IMG/VR virus record: IMGVR_UViG_3300043409_000247
Location: 1 to 21,218 of that record
Reading direction: 5' to 3' (one strand)
Length of the DNA: 21,218 nucleotides
DNA from: a virus
A program made the translations under genes and the position numbers. Positions 347 to 21,218 of this stretch are shown here, in pieces (the stretch's first letter is position 1; the number at the start of each line of letters is the position of its first letter). Below the pieces are notes generated by a model. That model ran no database searches, was not told where the DNA came from, and saw only the letters and a program-made list of their open reading frames with translations.

Positions 347-1284
347 AAATTGGATCATTATGCACTGGTTATGGTGGATTAGATATGGCAGTTGAAGCAT
401 ATTTTGATGCTGAAATGGTTTGGTGTGCTGAGAATGATAAATATGCATCAAAACTTATTAAGGAAAGATTTAACAAACCCAACTTGGGTGATATTAAACA
501 AATAGATTGGGCTTTAGTTGAGCCAATAGATATTCTTACAGCTGGCTATCCATGTCAGCCTTTTAGCCATGCAGGACAAAGAAAAGGTGATAATGATGAA
601 AGACATATTTGGCCGCACATACTTAAAGCAATTAGCGTTTTATGCCCCAAGTTTATCATCTTGGAAAATGTTAGAGGGCATCTCTCGCTCGGATTTAAGG
701 AAGTTCTCGGCGACCTTACCCAAAATGGGTATGATGCAAGATGGCGTATTGTCCGAGCTAGTGATGTTGGCGCGCCCCATCAAAGAGCAAGATTATTCAT
801 TATTGCCTACTCCAATGGCGCGAGATTACAAAGGCAAATCAACCAGAAACATACAACTTCCCAATGCAGTAACTTTGTTGCCAACCCCAACAGCGATGCA
901 TGTGAGAAACCACGACGAACCAATCGAGAAATATCGACAAAGAGTGGAGGATTTCAATCAAGGCAAAACACTAGGGAAACCGGGCGCAAGCACAGGTGTA
1001 GCTGTGAGATTGATAGCCACGCCAACAACAAATATCAGTCATACAACGGGCAAATGTCGGGATTGGGGCGCAGATTTGCTTCACGATGTGAAATGTCTAT
1101 GCAGACCATACCGAATACATTGGTCGATGGAAAATTAAACGCTAAATTTGTCGAATATATGATGGGCTTACCTCTTGGGTGGGTAACTGATTTAGACTTA
1201 TCTCGATCCCAACAATTAAAAATGCTGGGTAATGGCGTAGTGCCACAACAGGCTTATTATGCATTGGAGTTATTACATGAGTGA
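343..1284 (+). CDS. DNA (cytosine-5) methyltransferase
   Basis: A 313-aa C5 methyltransferase, which transfers a methyl group from SAM to cytosine in DNA. Motif I is GSLCTGYGGLD (4-14), motif IV GYPCQPFSHAG with catalytic C71, motif VI ENVRG (108-112), motif VIII HQRARLFI (146-153), and motif X MLGNGVVPQQ (about 294-303). KLNAKFVEYMMGLPLGW is the usual segment before motif X. The core looks complete. The variable target-recognition region (about 160-260) is rich in R, S, T, N and Q. No partner restriction gene is adjacent, so a solitary phage methyltransferase protecting phage DNA is the likely role; specificity cannot be read. The stop overlaps the next start (ATGA, 1277). The gene is present only in the left variant; a SpeD-like gene takes its place at 16010. 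A second long frame overlaps it at 569-1138. Confidence 0.93.
   Translation: MKIGSLCTGYGGLDMAVEAYFDAEMVWCAENDKYASKLIKERFNKPNLGDIKQIDWALVEPIDILTAGYPCQPFSHAGQRKGDNDERHIWPHILKAISVLCPKFIILENVRGHLSLGFKEVLGDLTQNGYDARWRIVRASDVGAPHQRARLFIIAYSNGARLQRQINQKHTTSQCSNFVANPNSDACEKPRRTNREISTKSGGFQSRQNTRETGRKHRCSCEIDSHANNKYQSYNGQMSGLGRRFASRCEMSMQTIPNTLVDGKLNAKFVEYMMGLPLGWVTDLDLSRSQQLKMLGNGVVPQQAYYALELLHE
569..1138 (+). CDS. Possible overprinted frame inside the methyltransferase gene (189 aa)
   Basis: This frame is offset from the methyltransferase frame and open from the stop at 527-529 to TAA 1136-1138. Its translation looks like a real protein: SSWKMLEG, then FSATLPKMGMMQDG, then LLPTPMARDYKG, LLPTPTAMHVRNHDEP and KPGASTGVAVRLIATPTT. 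From memory, series such as SWKT..FSATWPRSGMM..LLPTPTA.D.KG occur in phage proteins annotated near or within cytosine methyltransferases; I cannot confirm this here. FSATLPKMGMMQDG is encoded by the same bases as methyltransferase VLGDLTQNGYDAR, and LLPTPMARDYKG by those of IAYSNGARLQR, so both frames carry family-like signal. No clear Shine-Dalgarno precedes ATG 569. It could be a true overlapping gene or a sequence-level shadow that databases have annotated elsewhere. Confidence 0.35.
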   Translation: MQDKEKVIMMKDIFGRTYLKQLAFYAPSLSSWKMLEGISRSDLRKFSATLPKMGMMQDGVLSELVMLARPIKEQDYSLLPTPMARDYKGKSTRNIQLPNAVTLLPTPTAMHVRNHDEPIEKYRQRVEDFNQGKTLGKPGASTGVAVRLIATPTTNISHTTGKCRDWGADLLHDVKCLCRPYRIHWSMEN

Positions 1285-1366
1285 TGGCGGTTATGCAGAA
1301 ACTTGGTTAGAGACCGATGATTTACGCATTACGACTTGCCGTCTGACCTGCGGTTATGTTAATTGA
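1277..1366 (+). CDS. 29-aa conserved mini-protein (copy 1)
   Basis: The ATG at 1277 overlaps the methyltransferase stop (ATGA); translation gives 29 residues starting MSDGGYAETWLETDDL and ending CRLTCGYVN, with stop TGA 1364-1366. The copy at 16390-16479 differs by one replaced codon (ACC to GAG, T13 to E) and two silent third-base changes (CGC/CGA, ACT/ACA). The length and frame are kept although completely different genes precede it in the two variants, which supports a translated gene. It has two cysteines spaced CxxxC. Function is unknown. Confidence 0.6.
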   Translation: MSDGGYAETWLETDDLRITTCRLTCGYVN

Positions 1367-1385
1367 TTTGGAGGCATAGTGTAAC

Positions 1386-1796
1386 ATGGACAGAAAGCGT
1401 TCGATCTTAAATCGAAAAGCTGAGCCGCCAACGGCTAGGCTCGGAAGGCGCAGAGTTTGGGCGATCCTATTGCTAATTGCATTTAGCCTTTGCTTTTCAA
1501 AAGATTATTCCGTTGCTTATAGTCAATACAAAACACAGCATTATAAGCAATATACATTCATAGAATTAAATGATTTAGATCAGTATTACTGTATTGAGGA
1601 GCTGTGGCACAAGGAAAGCAGATGGTCGCCAACAGCTAAGAATGCAAGGTCATCAGCATTTGGAATACCACAAATTCTAAAGATGAAAGAACCTAACCCA
1701 TTCAAGCAAATAGATAGAGGCTTACGCTATATTGAGCACAAACATGGAACACCATGCAAGGCATTACAGTTCCATAATCGTAAAGGATATTATTGA
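1386..1796 (+). CDS. Membrane-anchored lysozyme/transglycosylase-like protein
   Basis: A 136-aa protein with a basic N-terminus, one hydrophobic segment (about 24-37, WAILLLIAFSLCF) acting as signal or anchor, then a small SLT/goose-lysozyme-like domain. The motif LWHKESRWSPTA carries the likely catalytic E77, followed by SSAFGIPQIL and a GLRYIEHKHGTPCKA segment. Similar domains in actinobacterial secreted lytic transglycosylases have the same order. C69 and C124 could form a disulphide outside the membrane. It probably cleaves peptidoglycan glycan strands, during either entry or lysis. The start is ATG 1386, preceded by GGAGG at 1370-1374. Its TGA overlaps the HNH start (TGATG). A separate peptidase-type endolysin lies at 12080, so this phage carries two wall enzymes. 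Confidence 0.8.
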   Translation: MDRKRSILNRKAEPPTARLGRRRVWAILLLIAFSLCFSKDYSVAYSQYKTQHYKQYTFIELNDLDQYYCIEELWHKESRWSPTAKNARSSAFGIPQILKMKEPNPFKQIDRGLRYIEHKHGTPCKALQFHNRKGYY

Positions 1797-2101
1797 TGAG
1801 TAGCAGTGCATTACGATCTACTGGTTCAACGCATAGATGGCGACAGATACGGAGTCGTATCCTGCGCAGAGATCAATTCATTTGTCAGTATTGCAACCAA
1901 GAAGCTACAACAGTTGATCATGTGATACCAAGAAGGCTTGGTGGTTTAGATAGTGATGATAATTTAGTTGCAAGTTGTCGTAGATGTAATTTAGCGAAAG
2001 GTGGGCGTTTTTTTGTGAGCGCACCGACACCACCGACCCCCCGTTCCTTTTCTAACCCACAAAACACCTCGATCAGCCACGATCAGACTGGATCAGATTG
2101 A
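1796..2101 (+). CDS. HNH endonuclease
   Basis: A 101-aa HNH nuclease. Two zinc pairs (C30xxC33 and C61xxC64) enclose the core: DHVIPRRLGG with catalytic H42, and the DNLVASCRRCN segment with N56. In HK97-type phages an HNH protein next to the large terminase helps cut the concatemer at cos during packaging, and that job fits here since no recognisable small terminase is present. I chose ATG 1796 (TGATG overlap with the lysozyme stop) over the in-frame TTG at 1793. The last 25 or so residues (APTPPTPRS onward) are proline-rich and unlike a folded domain. The DNA there holds a C-rich tract and three GATCAG repeats that may be a packaging site. Confidence 0.92.
   Translation: MSSSALRSTGSTHRWRQIRSRILRRDQFICQYCNQEATTVDHVIPRRLGGLDSDDNLVASCRRCNLAKGGRFFVSAPTPPTPRSFSNPQNTSISHDQTGSD
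2037..2096 (+). promoter_or_regulatory. Candidate packaging (cos-like) region: C-tract plus three phased GATCAG repeats
   Basis: A run of six C (2037-2042) stands out in this A+T-rich genome. Downstream, GATCAG occurs at 2071, 2081 and 2091, exactly 10 bp apart, about one helical turn, ending just before the terminase TTG. Phased repeats beside an HNH/terminase pair are where terminase-binding and cos cleavage sites can lie. The repeats are inside the HNH 3' coding end. The function is inferred from position and spacing only. Confidence 0.35.
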
Positions 2102-3573
2102 TTAACCTTAAAACTGGTGAGATAAGCGTAGATCACGCTCAATCGACATTAGGAGGTGTGCAAACACCGCGTATTCACTCAAAACTCAATGATTTGCCGT
2201 CTAAAGGTCAAGAGATGATTGATTTTGCAACCGAACTTGGAATCAATCTTATGGAATGGCAAAAATTCGTGTGCATTCATGCTCATAAAATTAAAGAAGA
2301 TAATCGGTGGGCAACCGCCGAATTGGGGTTGTGCCTTAGTCGCCAGAATGGAAAGAGCACCTTGATGATGCTTCGAATTCTGACCGGCATGTTTGTGTGG
2401 GGCGAAGGATTACAACTTGCATCAGCTCACAGACTTACTACATCACTTGAAACATTTAGACAGATTGTTGGCTTGATTGAAACACATCCGGCACTTGAGA
2501 AGGAAGTAAAGAAAATCAGGTGGCAACATGGCGCGGAGGAAATAGAATTATTTGGCAACAGGCGGTTTGTCGTGAAGGCTGCTAACAATGCAGCTAGAGG
2601 TTTAAGCAAACCTGAAACAATTCACATGGATGAGTTGCGAGAATACAAAGATGAGGATGCTTGGTCATCAATGCGTTATTCAATGATGAGTGCTAAAAAT
2701 CCGCAAGTATGGGTTTATTCTTCAGCAGGTGATCAGCATTCAGTTATACTTAATAAATTACGCGAGCGGGCATTGGCATCAGCTACGACCAATGACCCAA
2801 TAGGTTGGTTTGAGTGGAGTGCTGAACCTGATGCTCCTATCTTGCTTCCGTCAGGCGAGATTAACTGGAGTGCATTTGCTCAAGCCAACCCATCTTTAGG
2901 AATTACAATTCACCCAGACAACATTAAAGCTGCAATCAATGATCCACCGGATATTGTTAGGACTGAGTTACTCACACAATGGGTTGATACAATAAACAGC
3001 GCAATTGATCCGCAAAAGTGGGCTTTGTGTCAAATAGATCCAATACCATTAGATCCTGAGCAACCTACTTGGCTTGGCTTGGATTTGTCGCCTGATAGAA
3101 AGTTTGGCGCATTAGTAGCTGCTCAACGATTATCGGGGGAAAGATTTTATGTGCAATTGTTACACACTTGGTCAAATGATTACAGCTTAAACGATTTAGC
3201 AGTTGCCAACGATATTGCGCCTTATGTTAGAAAATACAATACGCAAACTGTGGCTTATAGCAAAAGGACAAGTCAGGCAGTTGCCAGTCGCCTAAGTTCT
3301 GCCGGCATTCAAACAACCGACATGGATGGGGCTTTATATGCGGAAAGTTGCGATAGATGGCTTGGAGCAATTAACTCACACAGGTTGCAACATTCTGGGC
3401 AAGCGGAATTGACCCAGCAAGTGTTATCAGCTGCAAAATTGCCTTATGGTGATGGCAGTTGGATTATTGGAAGGCGAGCAAGTCGGGTGGCGGTTTGTGC
3501 ATCTGTGGCAACGGCATTGGTAACTTATTTTGCGACACAACCTGAAACGGAAATAGACATACAAATCGCATAA
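2098..3573 (+). CDS. Terminase large subunit
   Basis: A 491-aa packaging motor, the ATPase/nuclease that drives DNA into the prohead and cuts it. The Walker A-like motif is SRQNGKST (81-88), Walker B IHMDE with D178/E179, and a likely coupling motif YSSAGD (207-212). The C-terminal RNase-H-like nuclease starts at WLGLDLSPDRKFGALVAA with D329; later acidic residues (DGALYAESCD) may complete the site. Length fits the family. The start is TTG 2098, overlapping the HNH stop as TTGA. The family-typical GVQTPRI segment begins only 20 residues in, which argues against later starts. GTG 2158 has AGGAGG directly before it, but only one base away. Position and partner suggest cos-type packaging with the HNH protein. 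Confidence 0.95.
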   Translation: MINLKTGEISVDHAQSTLGGVQTPRIHSKLNDLPSKGQEMIDFATELGINLMEWQKFVCIHAHKIKEDNRWATAELGLCLSRQNGKSTLMMLRILTGMFVWGEGLQLASAHRLTTSLETFRQIVGLIETHPALEKEVKKIRWQHGAEEIELFGNRRFVVKAANNAARGLSKPETIHMDELREYKDEDAWSSMRYSMMSAKNPQVWVYSSAGDQHSVILNKLRERALASATTNDPIGWFEWSAEPDAPILLPSGEINWSAFAQANPSLGITIHPDNIKAAINDPPDIVRTELLTQWVDTINSAIDPQKWALCQIDPIPLDPEQPTWLGLDLSPDRKFGALVAAQRLSGERFYVQLLHTWSNDYSLNDLAVANDIAPYVRKYNTQTVAYSKRTSQAVASRLSSAGIQTTDMDGALYAESCDRWLGAINSHRLQHSGQAELTQQVLSAAKLPYGDGSWIIGRRASRVAVCASVATALVTYFATQPETEIDIQIA

Positions 3574-3583
3574 ACAGGACTTT

Positions 3584-4708
3584 ATGGTATATTATGGTCT
3601 AATGGGATTATTTGATCGATTTTTGACAAATCAAACACCAACAATTCAAACCGATGTTGCTGCCGCTAATACGCCTTACAATTTACAATCAGCTGTTGGC
3701 GGATTATTTTATGGAGCACAAACCGCAACACGCGAACAAGCAATGTCAGTTCCAAGTTGCGCCAGAGCAAGAAATATAATTTGCTCAACAATTGGATCAC
3801 TACCTTTAGAAACATATAATCATTTTACAAAAGAACATTTAGATCCAAATAGAGTAATTATGCAACCAGATCCAAGAGTTGCAGGTTCAGCAATTTATGC
3901 TTGGATCGCTGAGGATTTATTATTTCATGGTGTCGCTTATGGACAAGTTTTGGATGCTTATGCTGCATCAGATAACAGTCGAGTTCGTGCTTGGACAAGA
4001 GTTGCACCTGATCGAGTTACTTACAACTTAAATGCAAATCAAACTGAAATTACTTCATACATGGTTGATGGAATGCATGTTCCGGCATCAGGCATTGGAT
4101 CTTTAATTGTATTTAGTGGATTAGATGAAGGTGTGCTTAATCGCGCAGGTCGCACAATAAGAGCTGCTCAGGAATTAGAAAAGGCTGCTGAATTATACGC
4201 TAAAGAGCCAGTTCCCACAATGGTATTAAAATCAAATGGCACAAATCTTGCACCAGAGAGAATTACAAAACTTCTTGAAAGTTGGAAAGTTGCTAGAAAC
4301 ACAAGAGCAACTGCATTCTTAAATGCTGATGTTGAATTAACAGCTCTTGGATTTGATCCACAAAAATTACAATTAAATGAAGCACGCCAATACCTTGCAA
4401 CAGAGATTGCAAGAGCAGTTGGCATTCCGGCAAGTTTTGTATCTGCTGAAACTACTAGCATGACTTATAGCACGACTGTTATGGAACGCAAAGCACTTAT
4501 TGATTTCAGTTTAAGAAATATTCTTACACCAATAGAGCAAAGATTATCAATGGCTGATTTTGTTCCAAATGGTGTCGAGGTTCGATTTGACATTGATGAT
4601 TTCTTGAGAGGTTCTGCTTTAGAGCGTGCTCAAGTCTATGAAATCCTAAACCGCATTGGCGCAATGAGCGTTGAACAAATCCAAGAGGAGGAGGACTTGA
4701 TCCGATGA
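3584..4708 (+). CDS. Portal protein (HK97 family)
   Basis: A 374-aa portal, the dodecameric ring at the capsid vertex through which DNA passes and to which the tail attaches. HK97-portal features are visible: SVPSCARARNIICSTIGSLP near 60-75, AWIAEDLLFHGVAYG, EIARAVGIPASFVS, and SFDLRN-like SLRNILTPIEQRLS near the C-terminus. The start at ATG 3584 has an AGGA four bases upstream. The in-frame ATG 3602 (MGLFDRF) also matches usual portal N-termini but has no ribosome site. A GAGGAGGAGG stretch at the 3' end (4685-4694) serves as ribosome binding site for the next gene, whose ATG overlaps the stop (ATGA, 4705). Confidence 0.93.
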   Translation: MVYYGLMGLFDRFLTNQTPTIQTDVAAANTPYNLQSAVGGLFYGAQTATREQAMSVPSCARARNIICSTIGSLPLETYNHFTKEHLDPNRVIMQPDPRVAGSAIYAWIAEDLLFHGVAYGQVLDAYAASDNSRVRAWTRVAPDRVTYNLNANQTEITSYMVDGMHVPASGIGSLIVFSGLDEGVLNRAGRTIRAAQELEKAAELYAKEPVPTMVLKSNGTNLAPERITKLLESWKVARNTRATAFLNADVELTALGFDPQKLQLNEARQYLATEIARAVGIPASFVSAETTSMTYSTTVMERKALIDFSLRNILTPIEQRLSMADFVPNGVEVRFDIDDFLRGSALERAQVYEILNRIGAMSVEQIQEEEDLIR

Positions 4709-6252
4709 AGATCAATTTCCCAATAACAATAACCGCAGCTGATACAAACAAGCGAACAATAAGTGGAACAATTGTAAGCTGGAATGAAAAAGGTATGACC
4801 TCAGCAGGTGCTACTGTTTTTGCAAAAGACAGTATTGATTTCGCAAAACCAGTAAAATTATTGCTCGAGCATGACAAAACACGACCTTTAGGAAAACTTG
4901 TCGATATAACTGCTAATGATAAAGGTTTAGAAGGCACATTCAAATTAGCCAAAACTTTTGCAGCTGATGATGCGCTTGAGGAAGCAGCAACCGGATTACG
5001 CGATGGATTTTCTGTCGGAGTAATGGTTGATGCTTGGGATAACAAAGATGGCGCAATGGTCATTTCAAAAAGTTCTTTACAGGAAGTCAGTTTGGTGTCT
5101 GACCCAGCAATTGCCTCAGCAAAAGTTGAAAGCGTAGTTGCAACAAATACACCGGCAGAGAATTCCGAAGCAACCGCTGAGGATACAACAACACAGGAGG
5201 ACAAAGTGTCTGATATAACTTCAGATGCTCCTATCGCAACCGAAGCGGTAGAAGCTGCAAAGTCTGAGCCTGTGGCAGTAGTAGCAGCGCAGTCAGTTGC
5301 TTACACAAAGCCACGCTCACCAATTATCAACAAAGCAACATACCTAGAGCATTCAGTTCGTGCTGCACTAGGAAACGATGAGAGCCGTCAGTATGTAATG
5401 GCTGCTGATACAACCAGCAACAATTCTGGCTTAATTCCAACACCACAATCAACAGAAGTTATCAACGGCATTTCAAATGCAGATCGTGGATCAATTGATG
5501 CAATTTCTCGTGGCGTATTGCCAGCATCAGGCATGACTTTTGAAATTCCAAAGATTACAACTGCTCCAACAGTTGGTGAGGAAGCAGAAGCAGCAACAAT
5601 TGATACAACCGATATGGCATCATCTTTCGTAACAGTAAATGTTAAGAAATTTGCCGGCGGACAAACATTCTCAGTTGAGTTGCTAGATCGTTCATCACCA
5701 GCATTCTTTGATGAGTTAGTTCGTCAAATGGAATTCGCTTATGCAAAAGAAACAGATAAGTTTGTCACTAATGGCATTATCTCATCTGGCTTAATTGCTA
5801 CAACAGCACAGGACAACACAAACACAGGACTTCTTGCTTATGTTGCACAAGCTGCTCAATTGGTTTATTCAAACTCATTGGGATTTGCTCGCAGCCTTGT
5901 GGTATCTCCAGAACAATGGGGTAACATCATGGGTTATAACGATGGTGGTCGTCCAATCTACAATGCTTCGAACCCACAAAACTCAGGTGGAGTAGTAGGA
6001 CCTCAATCACTTCGTGGAAATGTTGCTGGACTTGATCTTTATGTATCTCGTTCATTATCAGCATTAACATACACAACTGGTGATGGATCAATGTTTGTAA
6101 TCAATCCAGAAAGTTACACATGGTATGAGAGCCCACGCTTACAACTTCGTTCAGACATCACAGCAACAGGTCAAGTATCTGTCGCTTACTACGGCTATGG
6201 CGCACTTGCAACAAAGATCGCCAACGGATCAGTTCATTTCAACAAGAACTAA
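4705..6252 (+). CDS. Fused prohead protease and major capsid protein
   Basis: A 515-aa two-part protein. Residues 1-140 form an HK97-type capsid maturation protease: likely catalytic H56 (LLLEHDKT), S103 (DGFSVGV), then LQEVSLVSDPA (125-135). Residues 141-200 are a charged, Ala/Glu-rich linker or scaffold (delta-like) segment. From about 235 there is an HK97-fold capsid: NNSGLIPTPQSTEVI, SRGVLPASGMTFEIPKI, then the P-domain-like end. Fusion of these two genes is known from small actinophages. The protein should assemble the prohead and cleave its own linker on maturation. An internal ribosome site and GTG at 5206 could give capsid without protease. A hairpin follows the stop. Confidence 0.92.
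   Translation: MKINFPITITAADTNKRTISGTIVSWNEKGMTSAGATVFAKDSIDFAKPVKLLLEHDKTRPLGKLVDITANDKGLEGTFKLAKTFAADDALEEAATGLRDGFSVGVMVDAWDNKDGAMVISKSSLQEVSLVSDPAIASAKVESVVATNTPAENSEATAEDTTTQEDKVSDITSDAPIATEAVEAAKSEPVAVVAAQSVAYTKPRSPIINKATYLEHSVRAALGNDESRQYVMAADTTSNNSGLIPTPQSTEVINGISNADRGSIDAISRGVLPASGMTFEIPKITTAPTVGEEAEAATIDTTDMASSFVTVNVKKFAGGQTFSVELLDRSSPAFFDELVRQMEFAYAKETDKFVTNGIISSGLIATTAQDNTNTGLLAYVAQAAQLVYSNSLGFARSLVVSPEQWGNIMGYNDGGRPIYNASNPQNSGGVVGPQSLRGNVAGLDLYVSRSLSALTYTTGDGSMFVINPESYTWYESPRLQLRSDITATGQVSVAYYGYGALATKIANGSVHFNKN
5195..5208 (+). promoter_or_regulatory. Internal ribosome binding site and in-frame GTG for free capsid protein
   Basis: AGGAGG at 5195-5200 is a full Shine-Dalgarno, five bases before GTG 5206-5208. 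This GTG is codon 168 of the protease-capsid gene, in frame, placed after the protease domain and before the capsid domain. Starting here would give a 348-residue scaffold-plus-capsid protein lacking protease. The sequence elements are seen directly; their use is inferred. Confidence 0.6.
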
Positions 6253-15361: not shown

Positions 15362-15793
15362 ATGCCAATTTATGATGAGAATGGCGTTAGACAGCGCGAA
15401 GCAAAAGAGTGGCGAGATGAGTGGATTTCTGAACGCCATCGAACTTGGGGTTATGAACTGCCAGCGACCGATATTGATTTTATGTTACTTGAATATTCAG
15501 GCAGCAAGCCAATTGCATTGATCGAATACAAAACAATCGGAAGCATGAAATATGTCGGAACTGACAAAGTAATGCGAGGTCATGCACCAGTTAGTAATTT
15601 AGCTGATATGGCAAATCTGCCATCATTTATAGTTGCTTATGATATTAACGCAATTAAATTTTGGGTGTGGGCTACAAACAACCATGCTGAATTAGAGGTC
15701 TTAGGCGATAATTATGAAGCGATCAGCGAGAGCAAATTTGTGTCATTTCTAAAAAGATTGAGAGGTTTGCCAAATGAGTTTATTCAAGTGTAA
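15362..15793 (+). CDS. PD-(D/E)XK nuclease-like protein (variant B only)
   Basis: A 143-aa protein with the core pattern of the PD-(D/E)XK fold: TDIDFMLLEY (D37/D39) then PIALIEYK (E55, K57), i.e. a D ... E-x-K triad on adjacent strands. It is followed by a helix (SNLADMANLPSFIVAYD) and a final strand (IKFWVWATNN). Such proteins cut DNA in repair, recombination or host takeover. The motif fit is by eye. It starts three bases after the zinc-ribbon stop and overlaps the next gene by 20 bases. This gene is absent from the left variant, where the two zinc-ribbon genes are adjacent. Confidence 0.6.
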   Translation: MPIYDENGVRQREAKEWRDEWISERHRTWGYELPATDIDFMLLEYSGSKPIALIEYKTIGSMKYVGTDKVMRGHAPVSNLADMANLPSFIVAYDINAIKFWVWATNNHAELEVLGDNYEAISESKFVSFLKRLRGLPNEFIQV

Positions 15794-16013
15794 TGGTTGC
15801 AGTCGCAAGACTGAGTTTTTATGGCTCGAGCAGCTAGATACGCCGGAAGGTTTTAAGGCTTATCAGTGTATGGACTGTGGCTGTGTTGGCGTTAAGAATA
15901 TAGCTGAGGCGTTATCTATTCCAGACAGCATAATTAGTCGATGCGATCAATGTGGATGTTGGCAGTTTAAAGATTTGCCTTGTCATACTTGTGCTTTGAT
16001 TGGAGCAAAATGA
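15774..16013 (+). CDS. Double zinc-ribbon protein, 79 aa (variant B)
   Basis: Counterpart of the gene at 110-346. Cysteine pairs are at 6/9, 32/35, 57/60 and 70/73 (approximate), with the end RCDQCG, W.F.D.PCHTCALI.AK kept in both. About half of the residues differ, so the two strains' versions have been apart for some time. The start has GAGG about ten bases upstream and lies inside the nuclease-like gene. The stop overlaps the SpeD-like start (ATGA, 16010). Confidence 0.75.
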   Translation: MSLFKCNGCSRKTEFLWLEQLDTPEGFKAYQCMDCGCVGVKNIAEALSIPDSIISRCDQCGCWQFKDLPCHTCALIGAK

Positions 16014-16393
16014 GTTTGTATCATAAACACTTACTTATTAACGCCAATATCGATAAACCTTTTATGAGTGCTTATCAAGGTATTGACTTTCTCAAAGAAT
16101 TAGTCAATAAGATCGATATGAAAATAATACAAGGTCCTTATGCATCCTATGTCAATAAAATTGGCAACAGAGGTCTAACAGCTGTGGTAATGATTGAAAC
16201 CAGCCATATCGCCTTCCATATCTGGGATGAGAAAAAACCAGCCTTAATACAGTTTGATTTATATACCTGCGGATCACTTAAGGTGCAAAAAGTGTTAGAT
16301 GTATTTATCGATACTTTTGAGGTAGATACTATGGATTGGGTGCTATTTGATCGAGAAAATGGGTTTGTCAAAGAACAGGAAGGTCGCTTATGA
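16010..16393 (+). CDS. speD: SpeD-like pyruvoyl decarboxylase (AdoMet decarboxylase family)
   Basis: A 127-aa protein of the small bacterial/archaeal SpeD class. The key elements are SHIAFHIWDE with pyruvoyl-forming S65, H66 and H70, and FDLYTCG with C87; these match the Ser/His/Cys of known AdoMet decarboxylases (S63, H68, C83 in Thermotoga). The enzyme self-cleaves before the Ser and decarboxylates SAM for spermidine synthesis. Here Thr64 stands before the Ser instead of the usual Glu, so specificity may differ; some SpeD homologues, phage ones included, are reported to act on arginine or ornithine. ATG 16010 overlaps the zinc-ribbon stop; an earlier in-frame start at 15980 is inside that gene. 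No other polyamine gene is present. It takes the place of the methyltransferase of variant A. Confidence 0.82.
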   Translation: MSLYHKHLLINANIDKPFMSAYQGIDFLKELVNKIDMKIIQGPYASYVNKIGNRGLTAVVMIETSHIAFHIWDEKKPALIQFDLYTCGSLKVQKVLDVFIDTFEVDTMDWVLFDRENGFVKEQEGRL

Positions 16394-16479
16394 GTGATGG
16401 CGGTTATGCAGAAACTTGGTTAGAGGAGGATGATTTACGAATTACGACATGCCGTCTGACCTGCGGTTATGTTAATTGA
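16390..16479 (+). CDS. 29-aa conserved mini-protein (copy 2)
   Basis: Starts in the SpeD-like stop (ATGA) and ends TGA 16477-16479. It matches the first copy except E13 for T13 and two silent changes. After its codon for T20 the two copies become identical at 16450, so the end of the variable cassette lies inside this gene. Confidence 0.6.
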   Translation: MSDGGYAETWLEEDDLRITTCRLTCGYVN

Positions 16480-16498
16480 TTTGGAGGCATAGTGTAAC

Positions 16499-16909
16499 AT
16501 GGACAGAAAGCGTTCGATCTTAAATCGAAAAGCTGAGCCGCCAACGGCTAGGCTCGGAAGGCGCAGAGTTTGGGCGATCCTATTGCTAATTGCATTTAGC
16601 CTTTGCTTTTCAAAAGATTATTCCGTTGCTTATAGTCAATACAAAACACAGCATTATAAGCAATATACATTCATAGAATTAAATGATTTAGATCAGTATT
16701 ACTGTATTGAGGAGCTGTGGCACAAGGAAAGCAGATGGTCGCCAACAGCTAAGAATGCAAGGTCATCAGCATTTGGAATACCACAAATTCTAAAGATGAA
16801 AGAACCTAACCCATTCAAGCAAATAGATAGAGGCTTACGCTATATTGAGCACAAACATGGAACACCATGCAAGGCATTACAGTTCCATAATCGTAAAGGA
16901 TATTATTGA
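16499..16909 (+). CDS. Lysozyme/transglycosylase-like protein (second reading)
   Basis: Residue-for-residue the same as the protein at 1386-1796: N-terminal membrane segment, HKES with catalytic E77, C69/C124. In this copy it follows the SpeD-like cassette, so its upstream context is variant B. See the first copy for the annotation. Confidence 0.8.
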   Translation: MDRKRSILNRKAEPPTARLGRRRVWAILLLIAFSLCFSKDYSVAYSQYKTQHYKQYTFIELNDLDQYYCIEELWHKESRWSPTAKNARSSAFGIPQILKMKEPNPFKQIDRGLRYIEHKHGTPCKALQFHNRKGYY

Positions 16910-17214
16910 TGAGTAGCAGTGCATTACGATCTACTGGTTCAACGCATAGATGGCGACAGATACGGAGTCGTATCCTGCGCAGAGATCAATTCATTTGTCA
17001 GTATTGCAACCAAGAAGCTACAACAGTTGATCATGTGATACCAAGAAGGCTTGGTGGTTTAGATAGTGATGATAATTTAGTTGCAAGTTGTCGTAGATGT
17101 AATTTAGCGAAAGGTGGGCGTTTTTTTGTGAGCGCACCGACACCACCGACCCCCCGTTCCTTTTCTAACCCACAAAACACCTCGATCAGCCACGATCAGA
17201 CTGGATCAGATTGA
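16909..17214 (+). CDS. HNH endonuclease (second reading)
   Basis: Same 101-aa protein as at 1796-2101, with ATG 16909 overlapping the lysozyme-like stop. The C-tract and GATCAG repeats are present again, at 17150-17209. Confidence 0.92.
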   Translation: MSSSALRSTGSTHRWRQIRSRILRRDQFICQYCNQEATTVDHVIPRRLGGLDSDDNLVASCRRCNLAKGGRFFVSAPTPPTPRSFSNPQNTSISHDQTGSD

Positions 17215-18686
17215 TTAACCTTAAAACTGGTGAGATAAGCGTAGATCACGCTCAATCGACATTAGGAGGTGTGCAAACACCGCGTATTCACTCAAAACTC
17301 AATGATTTGCCGTCTAAAGGTCAAGAGATGATTGATTTTGCAACCGAACTTGGAATCAATCTTATGGAATGGCAAAAATTCGTGTGCATTCATGCTCATA
17401 AAATTAAAGAAGATAATCGGTGGGCAACCGCCGAATTGGGGTTGTGCCTTAGTCGCCAGAATGGAAAGAGCACCTTGATGATGCTTCGAATTCTGACCGG
17501 CATGTTTGTGTGGGGCGAAGGATTACAACTTGCATCAGCTCACAGACTTACTACATCACTTGAAACATTTAGACAGATTGTTGGCTTGATTGAAACACAT
17601 CCGGCACTTGAGAAGGAAGTAAAGAAAATCAGGTGGCAACATGGCGCGGAGGAAATAGAATTATTTGGCAACAGGCGGTTTGTCGTGAAGGCTGCTAACA
17701 ATGCAGCTAGAGGTTTAAGCAAACCTGAAACAATTCACATGGATGAGTTGCGAGAATACAAAGATGAGGATGCTTGGTCATCAATGCGTTATTCAATGAT
17801 GAGTGCTAAAAATCCGCAAGTATGGGTTTATTCTTCAGCAGGTGATCAGCATTCAGTTATACTTAATAAATTACGCGAGCGGGCATTGGCATCAGCTACG
17901 ACCAATGACCCAATAGGTTGGTTTGAGTGGAGTGCTGAACCTGATGCTCCTATCTTGCTTCCGTCAGGCGAGATTAACTGGAGTGCATTTGCTCAAGCCA
18001 ACCCATCTTTAGGAATTACAATTCACCCAGACAACATTAAAGCTGCAATCAATGATCCACCGGATATTGTTAGGACTGAGTTACTCACACAATGGGTTGA
18101 TACAATAAACAGCGCAATTGATCCGCAAAAGTGGGCTTTGTGTCAAATAGATCCAATACCATTAGATCCTGAGCAACCTACTTGGCTTGGCTTGGATTTG
18201 TCGCCTGATAGAAAGTTTGGCGCATTAGTAGCTGCTCAACGATTATCGGGGGAAAGATTTTATGTGCAATTGTTACACACTTGGTCAAATGATTACAGCT
18301 TAAACGATTTAGCAGTTGCCAACGATATTGCGCCTTATGTTAGAAAATACAATACGCAAACTGTGGCTTATAGCAAAAGGACAAGTCAGGCAGTTGCCAG
18401 TCGCCTAAGTTCTGCCGGCATTCAAACAACCGACATGGATGGGGCTTTATATGCGGAAAGTTGCGATAGATGGCTTGGAGCAATTAACTCACACAGGTTG
18501 CAACATTCTGGGCAAGCGGAATTGACCCAGCAAGTGTTATCAGCTGCAAAATTGCCTTATGGTGATGGCAGTTGGATTATTGGAAGGCGAGCAAGTCGGG
18601 TGGCGGTTTGTGCATCTGTGGCAACGGCATTGGTAACTTATTTTGCGACACAACCTGAAACGGAAATAGACATACAAATCGCATAA
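17211..18686 (+). CDS. Terminase large subunit (second reading)
   Basis: Identical 491-aa protein to 2098-3573, TTG start overlapping the HNH stop. Walker A SRQNGKST, Walker B IHMDE and the nuclease Asp are unchanged. Confidence 0.95.
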   Translation: MINLKTGEISVDHAQSTLGGVQTPRIHSKLNDLPSKGQEMIDFATELGINLMEWQKFVCIHAHKIKEDNRWATAELGLCLSRQNGKSTLMMLRILTGMFVWGEGLQLASAHRLTTSLETFRQIVGLIETHPALEKEVKKIRWQHGAEEIELFGNRRFVVKAANNAARGLSKPETIHMDELREYKDEDAWSSMRYSMMSAKNPQVWVYSSAGDQHSVILNKLRERALASATTNDPIGWFEWSAEPDAPILLPSGEINWSAFAQANPSLGITIHPDNIKAAINDPPDIVRTELLTQWVDTINSAIDPQKWALCQIDPIPLDPEQPTWLGLDLSPDRKFGALVAAQRLSGERFYVQLLHTWSNDYSLNDLAVANDIAPYVRKYNTQTVAYSKRTSQAVASRLSSAGIQTTDMDGALYAESCDRWLGAINSHRLQHSGQAELTQQVLSAAKLPYGDGSWIIGRRASRVAVCASVATALVTYFATQPETEIDIQIA

Positions 18687-18696
18687 ACAGGACTTT

Positions 18697-19821
18697 ATGG
18701 TATATTATGGTCTAATGGGATTATTTGATCGATTTTTGACAAATCAAACACCAACAATTCAAACCGATGTTGCTGCCGCTAATACGCCTTACAATTTACA
18801 ATCAGCTGTTGGCGGATTATTTTATGGAGCACAAACCGCAACACGCGAACAAGCAATGTCAGTTCCAAGTTGCGCCAGAGCAAGAAATATAATTTGCTCA
18901 ACAATTGGATCACTACCTTTAGAAACATATAATCATTTTACAAAAGAACATTTAGATCCAAATAGAGTAATTATGCAACCAGATCCAAGAGTTGCAGGTT
19001 CAGCAATTTATGCTTGGATCGCTGAGGATTTATTATTTCATGGTGTCGCTTATGGACAAGTTTTGGATGCTTATGCTGCATCAGATAACAGTCGAGTTCG
19101 TGCTTGGACAAGAGTTGCACCTGATCGAGTTACTTACAACTTAAATGCAAATCAAACTGAAATTACTTCATACATGGTTGATGGAATGCATGTTCCGGCA
19201 TCAGGCATTGGATCTTTAATTGTATTTAGTGGATTAGATGAAGGTGTGCTTAATCGCGCAGGTCGCACAATAAGAGCTGCTCAGGAATTAGAAAAGGCTG
19301 CTGAATTATACGCTAAAGAGCCAGTTCCCACAATGGTATTAAAATCAAATGGCACAAATCTTGCACCAGAGAGAATTACAAAACTTCTTGAAAGTTGGAA
19401 AGTTGCTAGAAACACAAGAGCAACTGCATTCTTAAATGCTGATGTTGAATTAACAGCTCTTGGATTTGATCCACAAAAATTACAATTAAATGAAGCACGC
19501 CAATACCTTGCAACAGAGATTGCAAGAGCAGTTGGCATTCCGGCAAGTTTTGTATCTGCTGAAACTACTAGCATGACTTATAGCACGACTGTTATGGAAC
19601 GCAAAGCACTTATTGATTTCAGTTTAAGAAATATTCTTACACCAATAGAGCAAAGATTATCAATGGCTGATTTTGTTCCAAATGGTGTCGAGGTTCGATT
19701 TGACATTGATGATTTCTTGAGAGGTTCTGCTTTAGAGCGTGCTCAAGTCTATGAAATCCTAAACCGCATTGGCGCAATGAGCGTTGAACAAATCCAAGAG
19801 GAGGAGGACTTGATCCGATGA
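18697..19821 (+). CDS. Portal protein (second reading)
   Basis: Identical 374-aa protein to 3584-4708, with the same AGGA ribosome site and the same ATGA overlap with the next gene. Confidence 0.93.
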   Translation: MVYYGLMGLFDRFLTNQTPTIQTDVAAANTPYNLQSAVGGLFYGAQTATREQAMSVPSCARARNIICSTIGSLPLETYNHFTKEHLDPNRVIMQPDPRVAGSAIYAWIAEDLLFHGVAYGQVLDAYAASDNSRVRAWTRVAPDRVTYNLNANQTEITSYMVDGMHVPASGIGSLIVFSGLDEGVLNRAGRTIRAAQELEKAAELYAKEPVPTMVLKSNGTNLAPERITKLLESWKVARNTRATAFLNADVELTALGFDPQKLQLNEARQYLATEIARAVGIPASFVSAETTSMTYSTTVMERKALIDFSLRNILTPIEQRLSMADFVPNGVEVRFDIDDFLRGSALERAQVYEILNRIGAMSVEQIQEEEDLIR

Positions 19822-21218
19822 AGATCAATTTCCCAATAACAATAACCGCAGCTGATACAAACAAGCGAACAATAAGTGGAACAATTGTAAGCTGGAATGA
19901 AAAAGGTATGACCTCAGCAGGTGCTACTGTTTTTGCAAAAGACAGTATTGATTTCGCAAAACCAGTAAAATTATTGCTCGAGCATGACAAAACACGACCT
20001 TTAGGAAAACTTGTCGATATAACTGCTAATGATAAAGGTTTAGAAGGCACATTCAAATTAGCCAAAACTTTTGCAGCTGATGATGCGCTTGAGGAAGCAG
20101 CAACCGGATTACGCGATGGATTTTCTGTCGGAGTAATGGTTGATGCTTGGGATAACAAAGATGGCGCAATGGTCATTTCAAAAAGTTCTTTACAGGAAGT
20201 CAGTTTGGTGTCTGACCCAGCAATTGCCTCAGCAAAAGTTGAAAGCGTAGTTGCAACAAATACACCGGCAGAGAATTCCGAAGCAACCGCTGAGGATACA
20301 ACAACACAGGAGGACAAAGTGTCTGATATAACTTCAGATGCTCCTATCGCAACCGAAGCGGTAGAAGCTGCAAAGTCTGAGCCTGTGGCAGTAGTAGCAG
20401 CGCAGTCAGTTGCTTACACAAAGCCACGCTCACCAATTATCAACAAAGCAACATACCTAGAGCATTCAGTTCGTGCTGCACTAGGAAACGATGAGAGCCG
20501 TCAGTATGTAATGGCTGCTGATACAACCAGCAACAATTCTGGCTTAATTCCAACACCACAATCAACAGAAGTTATCAACGGCATTTCAAATGCAGATCGT
20601 GGATCAATTGATGCAATTTCTCGTGGCGTATTGCCAGCATCAGGCATGACTTTTGAAATTCCAAAGATTACAACTGCTCCAACAGTTGGTGAGGAAGCAG
20701 AAGCAGCAACAATTGATACAACCGATATGGCATCATCTTTCGTAACAGTAAATGTTAAGAAATTTGCCGGCGGACAAACATTCTCAGTTGAGTTGCTAGA
20801 TCGTTCATCACCAGCATTCTTTGATGAGTTAGTTCGTCAAATGGAATTCGCTTATGCAAAAGAAACAGATAAGTTTGTCACTAATGGCATTATCTCATCT
20901 GGCTTAATTGCTACAACAGCACAGGACAACACAAACACAGGACTTCTTGCTTATGTTGCACAAGCTGCTCAATTGGTTTATTCAAACTCATTGGGATTTG
21001 CTCGCAGCCTTGTGGTATCTCCAGAACAATGGGGTAACATCATGGGTTATAACGATGGTGGTCGTCCAATCTACAATGCTTCGAACCCACAAAACTCAGG
21101 TGGAGTAGTAGGACCTCAATCACTTCGTGGAAATGTTGCTGGACTTGATCTTTATGTATCTCGTTCATTATCAGCATTAACATACACAACTGGTGATGGA
21201 TCAATGTTTGTAATCAAC
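19818..21218 (+). CDS. Fused prohead protease-major capsid protein, 3' truncated by window end
   Basis: The first 467 codons of the 515-codon gene seen at 4705-6252; the last 48 residues are cut off by the window edge. The internal AGGAGG/GTG start is repeated at 20308-20321. The only difference noticed is the last base (21218), silent. Confidence 0.92.
   Translation, partial: MKINFPITITAADTNKRTISGTIVSWNEKGMTSAGATVFAKDSIDFAKPVKLLLEHDKTRPLGKLVDITANDKGLEGTFKLAKTFAADDALEEAATGLRDGFSVGVMVDAWDNKDGAMVISKSSLQEVSLVSDPAIASAKVESVVATNTPAENSEATAEDTTTQEDKVSDITSDAPIATEAVEAAKSEPVAVVAAQSVAYTKPRSPIINKATYLEHSVRAALGNDESRQYVMAADTTSNNSGLIPTPQSTEVINGISNADRGSIDAISRGVLPASGMTFEIPKITTAPTVGEEAEAATIDTTDMASSFVTVNVKKFAGGQTFSVELLDRSSPAFFDELVRQMEFAYAKETDKFVTNGIISSGLIATTAQDNTNTGLLAYVAQAAQLVYSNSLGFARSLVVSPEQWGNIMGYNDGGRPIYNASNPQNSGGVVGPQSLRGNVAGLDLYVSRSLSALTYTTGDGSMFVIN

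Follow-up and report, generated by a model that had tools for sequence, protein, structure and literature searches.

The multispecific C5 methyltransferases of Bacillus phages (SPbeta/phi3T type) carry several exchangeable recognition modules on one catalytic domain. In M.EcoHK31I, the gene for the larger of two polypeptides contains, in another frame, the coding sequence of the smaller one. M.EcoHK31I (YGGCCR) is described in PMC3404938, which cites Nucleic Acids Res 1995 23:103, as a C5 methyltransferase needing two polypeptides; the same paper assigns motifs I-VIII and X and the predicted TRD to the larger chain and only motif IX to the smaller. It also describes M.AquI (CYCGRG) as a split C5 methyltransferase, one polypeptide having the catalytic motifs and the other the distal half with the recognition part. 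The split of M.AquI lies in the variable region and leaves motifs IX-X in the smaller chain. The literature searched for overlapping phage methyltransferase genes, which included few subscription journals, gave only this M.EcoHK31I and M.AquI background. A methyltransferase family with an inner LPTP gene is not described in the portions consulted of two frameshift surveys (PMC3711429, PMC5009743), and the PRFect paper (PMC10885494) mentions methyltransferases only in passing among genes known to contain frameshifts.

The sequence studied here is an IMG/VR virus record (G000) of 21,218 bases, the whole of which we call the window. It carries a gene for a 313-residue C5 methyltransferase (343-1284, + strand; alpha), whose +1 phase contains an open reading frame of 189 aa at 569-1138, also on the + strand. 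We consider it likely, from sequence comparison, that the two overlapping genes specify a two-polypeptide C5-cytosine DNA methyltransferase in which alpha is catalytic and the inner product, beta, serves target recognition. The likeness to M.EcoHK31I, namely two polypeptides with the smaller in an alternative frame inside the larger, is drawn here from sequence and selection. The layout with motif IX in the smaller and X in the larger chain is not that of the window, where both lie in alpha and beta ends immediately ahead of IX, but it is found in 80 IMG/VR loci (type II, below). Since the smaller chain lacks motif IX, we regard the window, compared by published layout, as a variant of the M.EcoHK31I type. 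In addition, the published account puts the predicted TRD in the larger subunit, whereas evolutionary rates here locate the recognition region within the inner frame. M.AquI is closest to our type III; the window differs from it in that IX-X remain in alpha and the genes overlap extensively.

Alpha contains motifs I, IV (PCQ), VI (ENV), VIII, IX and X in order, all in one frame, and has an M.HhaI-like fold, as expected of a PF00145 member (PF00145, E=5.7e-45; TIGR00675, 5.3e-36); it also matches phrog_363 ('DNA methyltransferase') at 4e-66. The AF2 model, built with 47 sequences, aligns with M.HhaI at Z 22.4 over 218 of 327 residues. It is ordered through most of residues 1-165 and again from about residue 240, with pLDDT about 30 between, and shows a further dip at residues 71-90 within the catalytic domain. 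The catalytic domain with motifs I-VIII (343-810, +; PCQ 550-558, ENV 664-672, GAPHQRARLF 769-798) has pLDDT mostly about 90 and evolves in frame 0, position 3 being fastest. Motifs IX (KFVEYMMGLPLGW) and X (MLGNGVVPQQA), at 1129-1275 (+), reach pLDDT about 90-95, and frame-0 selection is back there (position 3, 0.32; 4-fold divergence, 0.40). Between them, at 811-1128 (+), lies frame 0 of what we call the LPTP region. pLDDT is about 30 over residues 167-233, and residues 167-239 are mostly below 50 and carry no frame-0 selection, the +1 frame being selected over the same stretch. Judging from the model, alpha seems to have no folded TRD.

An earlier note on this DNA, made from the letters alone, had pointed to the second frame, to certain peptides within it, to the retention of motifs VI and VIII in the methyltransferase frame, and to an R/S/T/N-rich, overprinted look of that frame past residue 165. 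All of these are found: the peptides are present as quoted, the R/S/T/N-rich composition is seen in the translation past about residue 160, and alpha motifs VI-VIII span the dual-coding stretch at 593-799 (+). The suggestion of overprinting was if anything too cautious, since past residue 165 the +1 frame is the selected one. The note had also listed the inner frame from 569 on. The frame stands; the start probably does not. An ATG at 593 or 596 is conserved in 71/71 non-redundant relatives, synonymous constraint sets in at the 593 codon and neither at 569 nor at the upstream stop, and ATG 569, missing in several relatives, was rejected. GTG 587 and ATG 596 are other possible starts. A Shine-Dalgarno-like AAAAGG lies at 582-587 (+), and an SD-like sequence precedes the inner ATG in 70/71 non-redundant relatives against a background of 24%, although it is partly forced by the conserved alpha residues R-K-G. 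Thus, beta probably begins at ATG 593 behind AAAAGG and would comprise 181 aa (593-1138, +).

The +1 ORF is, by its sequence conservation, an overlapping gene maintained within the C5 methyltransferase. Both frames are open in 36/36 non-redundant relatives; stops in the inner frame of homologous methyltransferase genes, named beforehand as the outcome that would speak against dual coding, are thus absent. When synonymous codons are shuffled given alpha, the +1 frame stays open over codons 84-165 with a probability of about 6e-4 (0.06%) per sequence, and when the synonymous codons of beta are randomised, the chance that alpha has no stop in the LPTP zone is about 1.6% per sequence. Among relatives picked up through the methyltransferase frame alone whose gene is complete, the +1 frame has no stop between about codon 62 and a point shortly ahead of motif IX, independently of the length of the alpha gene (260-355 aa).

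Synonymous-site divergence follows the inner gene. Among 31 independent pairs, 4-fold divergence in the alpha frame is 0.345 over codons 5-60 and 0.304 over codons 62-83, falls to 0.234 (codons 84-115) and 0.192 (codons 116-165) in the dual-coding part, drops to 0.038 over the LPTP codons 168-258 and recovers to 0.401 over codons 268-308. The same change of frame appears in the differences of close pairs at codon positions 1/2/3, which are 0.100/0.026/0.211 over codons 1-60 and 0.063/0.011/0.215 past codon 268, and 0.286/0.056/0.032 over codons 166-225. There, the free base is position 1 of the alpha codon, which is the third position in beta. Distant pairs, in which synonymous sites should be saturated, have an inner-frame similarity over codons 86-156 above the synonymous null (median z 4.3 over 66 pairs, 60/66 above 2; z 2.4-6.6 for pairs including the window). 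Type II loci, compared in 17 pairs, repeat the +1 pattern in their LPTP and IX zones. From about codon 157 to codon 262, protein-like evolution is confined to the +1 frame, and the methyltransferase frame is a passive unstructured bridge.

A chance origin of the open +1 frame, through codon usage or strong methyltransferase conservation, is hardly credible: amino-acid constraints are partly shared, as in the R-K-G residues that yield the SD, but the open-frame, position-rate, 4-fold and distant-pair tests, and the comparison of layout types, all contradict it, and ordinary C5 methyltransferases have no open +1 beta. A control set drawn from 80 Actinomycetota genomes comprised 33 PF00145 loci. 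Beta is absent from 28 of them; the five that have it are all near the alpha subfamily, always with a shift of +1 and an overlap of about 210-220 nt. Dual coding, as the earlier note had proposed it, is strongly supported by the open-frame counts, the synonymous constraint and the database matches.

Residues 1-144 of the inner ORF match phrog_1008 'DNA methyltransferase' (E=1.2e-17), and beta proteins in general match it at 1e-17 to 3e-93; this fits the note's remark on the origin of LPTP proteins in databases. The C-terminus of alpha (residues 250-311) matches another part of phrog_1008 than the inner ORF does, which suggested that the two belong to one family whose frames stand in different register elsewhere. 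PHROG 1008 and PHROG 363 are both named DNA methyltransferase in the catalogue, and no statement that they form an overlapping pair was found. Neither Pfam nor NCBIfam has a model matching the inner-frame proteins.

Loci were collected from IMG/VR by the methyltransferase frame alone (54 loci), by the inner frame (77) and by profile (200, of which 80 were kept). Layouts were classed by the location of motifs IX and X; some loci are near duplicates. Type I, which includes the window, has both IX and X in alpha (recognised by pattern in 51/58 loci, the others being partly unassigned), and beta ends before IX. In type II, the +1 frame holds IX and alpha holds X (67/80 loci, the others again partly unassigned), with beta in +1 in 80/80. 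In type III (19 loci), IX, and X where it was found, are in the +1 frame. No stop interrupts alpha within the LPTP zone in types I (58/58 loci) and II (80/80), and the alpha frame has 1-14 stops there in 19/19 type III loci. This pattern, open in types I and II and stopped in type III, means that alpha is kept open through the zone only where needed motifs lie downstream.

These layouts bear on the idea that a programmed frameshift leads the ribosome from alpha into +1 past motif VIII (and, in the window type, back before IX), giving one chain with an in-line LPTP domain. Selection does pass from one frame to the other where motif VIII ends and once more ahead of IX, and the recombined pieces would make a standard C5 methyltransferase. 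Yet the window type would require two shifts of opposite sense, and the +1 constraint starts at the inner start, 70 codons ahead of the end of motif VIII. In a programmed frameshift the upstream frame is expected to be closed past the shift site; in types I and II alpha is open throughout the zone (138/138), which frameshifting leaves unexplained, as it does the conserved start codon with its SD. We therefore think frameshifting very unlikely: an alpha that is open only when needed, together with a conserved inner start, argues for two separate chains.

Beta consists of a constant N-terminal domain followed by LPTP modules. The dual-coding stretch (593-799) encodes alpha motifs VI-VIII over this N-terminal SWK...GMM domain (DIFG...SWKM...FSATLPKMGMMQDGVLSEL), in which L14, W24, P43, G46, G51 and L53 are invariant (numbering of alignment A1). 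In the window, module 1 (LLPTPMARDYKGKSTRNIQLPNAVT; 800-874, +) belongs to cluster M3 (21 members) and module 2 (LLPTPTAMHVRNHDEP...GVAVR; 875-1009, +) to cluster M0 (41 members); module 3 (LIATPTTN...HDVKC) and the constant C-terminus (YRIHW) follow at 1010-1135 (+; alignment A1). The 157 betas compared have 1-5 LPTP modules each in 63 distinct orders, and sorting of their 216 internal modules (median 27 aa) gives 48 clusters, one of which, M1, is common to types I and II. From their sequences, the modules look like recombining specificity cassettes and may read DNA. The SPbeta/phi3T-type enzymes likewise have exchangeable modules in a phage enzyme; there the modules stand in line in one chain, whereas here the LPTP units, of about 20-45 aa and varying in number and order, sit in a separate overprinted protein.

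The recognition role is suggested by the position of beta, by its modularity and by an alpha without a folded TRD. It does not come from the structure of beta: AF2 of beta alone (54 relatives) gave a low-confidence model (pLDDT 52), and Foldseek with this model returned nothing below E 0.8 and no solved fold. The missing confident fold, like the lack of a named domain in Pfam and NCBIfam, would also suit a real inner gene with another role, as a regulator, a counter-defence protein or an inhibitor. We hold such a role to be unlikely, since the LPTP array sits at the place of the TRD (VIII to IX), alpha appears to lack a folded TRD of its own, IX, or IX and X, belong to beta in types II and III, and beta occurs with the alpha subfamily and not with ordinary C5 methyltransferases.

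The preferred two-chain enzyme would then work as follows. Alpha would provide the AdoMet-binding and catalytic motifs I-VIII as well as IX-X. Beta (about 593-1138, +1), started from its own Shine-Dalgarno sequence and ATG, would probably dock on alpha through its constant N-terminal domain and present the LPTP module array as the target-recognition part, and alpha over the LPTP region would be a mere flexible bridge to motifs IX-X. This supposes that alpha and beta are both translated and that beta binds alpha; the enzyme may protect phage DNA against host restriction. An alpha with both IX and X could in principle act alone. We also count against the two-chain reading that the M.EcoHK31I predicted TRD is put in the larger subunit in PMC3404938, that the SD is partly set by the alpha residues R-K-G, and that alpha of one locus (L114) has an early stop. 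Somewhat better than even, in our estimate, are the chances of a broader proposal: that these loci represent a widespread class of phage C5 methyltransferases in which recognition has moved to an overprinted gene with a shuffled LPTP array, the alpha stretch being a passive bridge that is open only to reach IX/X, and that the TRD predicted in the larger chain of M.EcoHK31I may be such a bridge.

New here, against the literature searched, are a beta without IX and X, LPTP modules selected in the inner frame only, the rule that alpha is open only when needed, the modular array and the spread of the system. The conserved inner start, the three IX/X layouts, the shuffled modules and the M.EcoHK31I precedent go beyond what the earlier note had foreseen. 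Bacteria and dsDNA phages rarely have long same-strand overlapping genes whose products are both conserved over large distances; in the present case catalysis and target choice of one enzyme appear to share bases, and the three layouts serve as mutual controls. The records inspected often omit beta, annotate part of it or label it as another methyltransferase, and many specificity predictions for phage C5 methyltransferases may rest on the wrong frame. Should the modules be recognition units, they could be used to read off specificity.

By sequence, beta overlaps relatives in numerous phages, many of them unrelated, and in prophages and plasmids; the shift, where the frame was compared, is always +1. 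A tblastn search with the inner frame matched 146 phage records. The window layout is repeated in Rhodococcus phage ReT1v-2 (L003) and in a Kitasatospora genome (L139), the latter being the only locus given by a profile search of genome contigs with beta, in which short degenerate patterns were strict. In the records of the Mycobacterium phages Alma and Camperdownii, motifs I-VIII belong to one gene labelled 'DNA methyltransferase', and SWK/LPTP and IX-X to a second of that name, which overlaps it. In Acinetobacter phage ABMM1, motif IX is in +1 and motif X in the methyltransferase frame, and a Manatee Spring phage also has motif IX in +1. The shift is also +1 in a Leptospira plasmid and a Paenibacillus phage; further tblastn matches, by similarity alone, are in records named as Pseudomonas, Salmonella, Escherichia, Arthrobacter and Bacteroides phages. 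No clear candidate for an EcoHK31I-like R-M locus emerged from a search of plasmids.

Several of these loci have peculiarities of their own. The Kitasatospora genome (G001) contains two separate alpha/beta pairs (L139/L306 and L307) besides ordinary C5 methyltransferases. The ReT1v-2 record calls the inner frame a hypothetical protein; its methyltransferase annotation covers just the C-terminal end of alpha and leaves the catalytic N-terminus unannotated. Four loci are large variants (L004, 1233-2618, of Gordonia phage Gudmit; L351, L352 and L356) in which alpha is open for 240-282 codons to IX and the +1 frame is stopped; in Gudmit the LPTP modules lie first in +1 and later in the alpha frame, possibly a half-way fusion. 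The early stop in L114 (1442-1798) truncates alpha, through decay or a sequencing error.

Within the window, a 4.8-kb stretch occurs twice, at 1277-6104 and 16390-21217, with 99.9% identity and 15,113 bases apart, so that the window runs beyond one genome length (about 15.1 kb); it probably joins two strain variants. At the second copy, the methyltransferase pair (343-1284) is replaced by an S-adenosylmethionine decarboxylase-like gene (15980-16393; PF02675, 5.7e-14) directly 5' of the shared stretch, one AdoMet-using gene thus being exchanged for another at the same locus. An ORF of 143 aa with no Pfam match (15362-15793) is present in the decarboxylase variant only.
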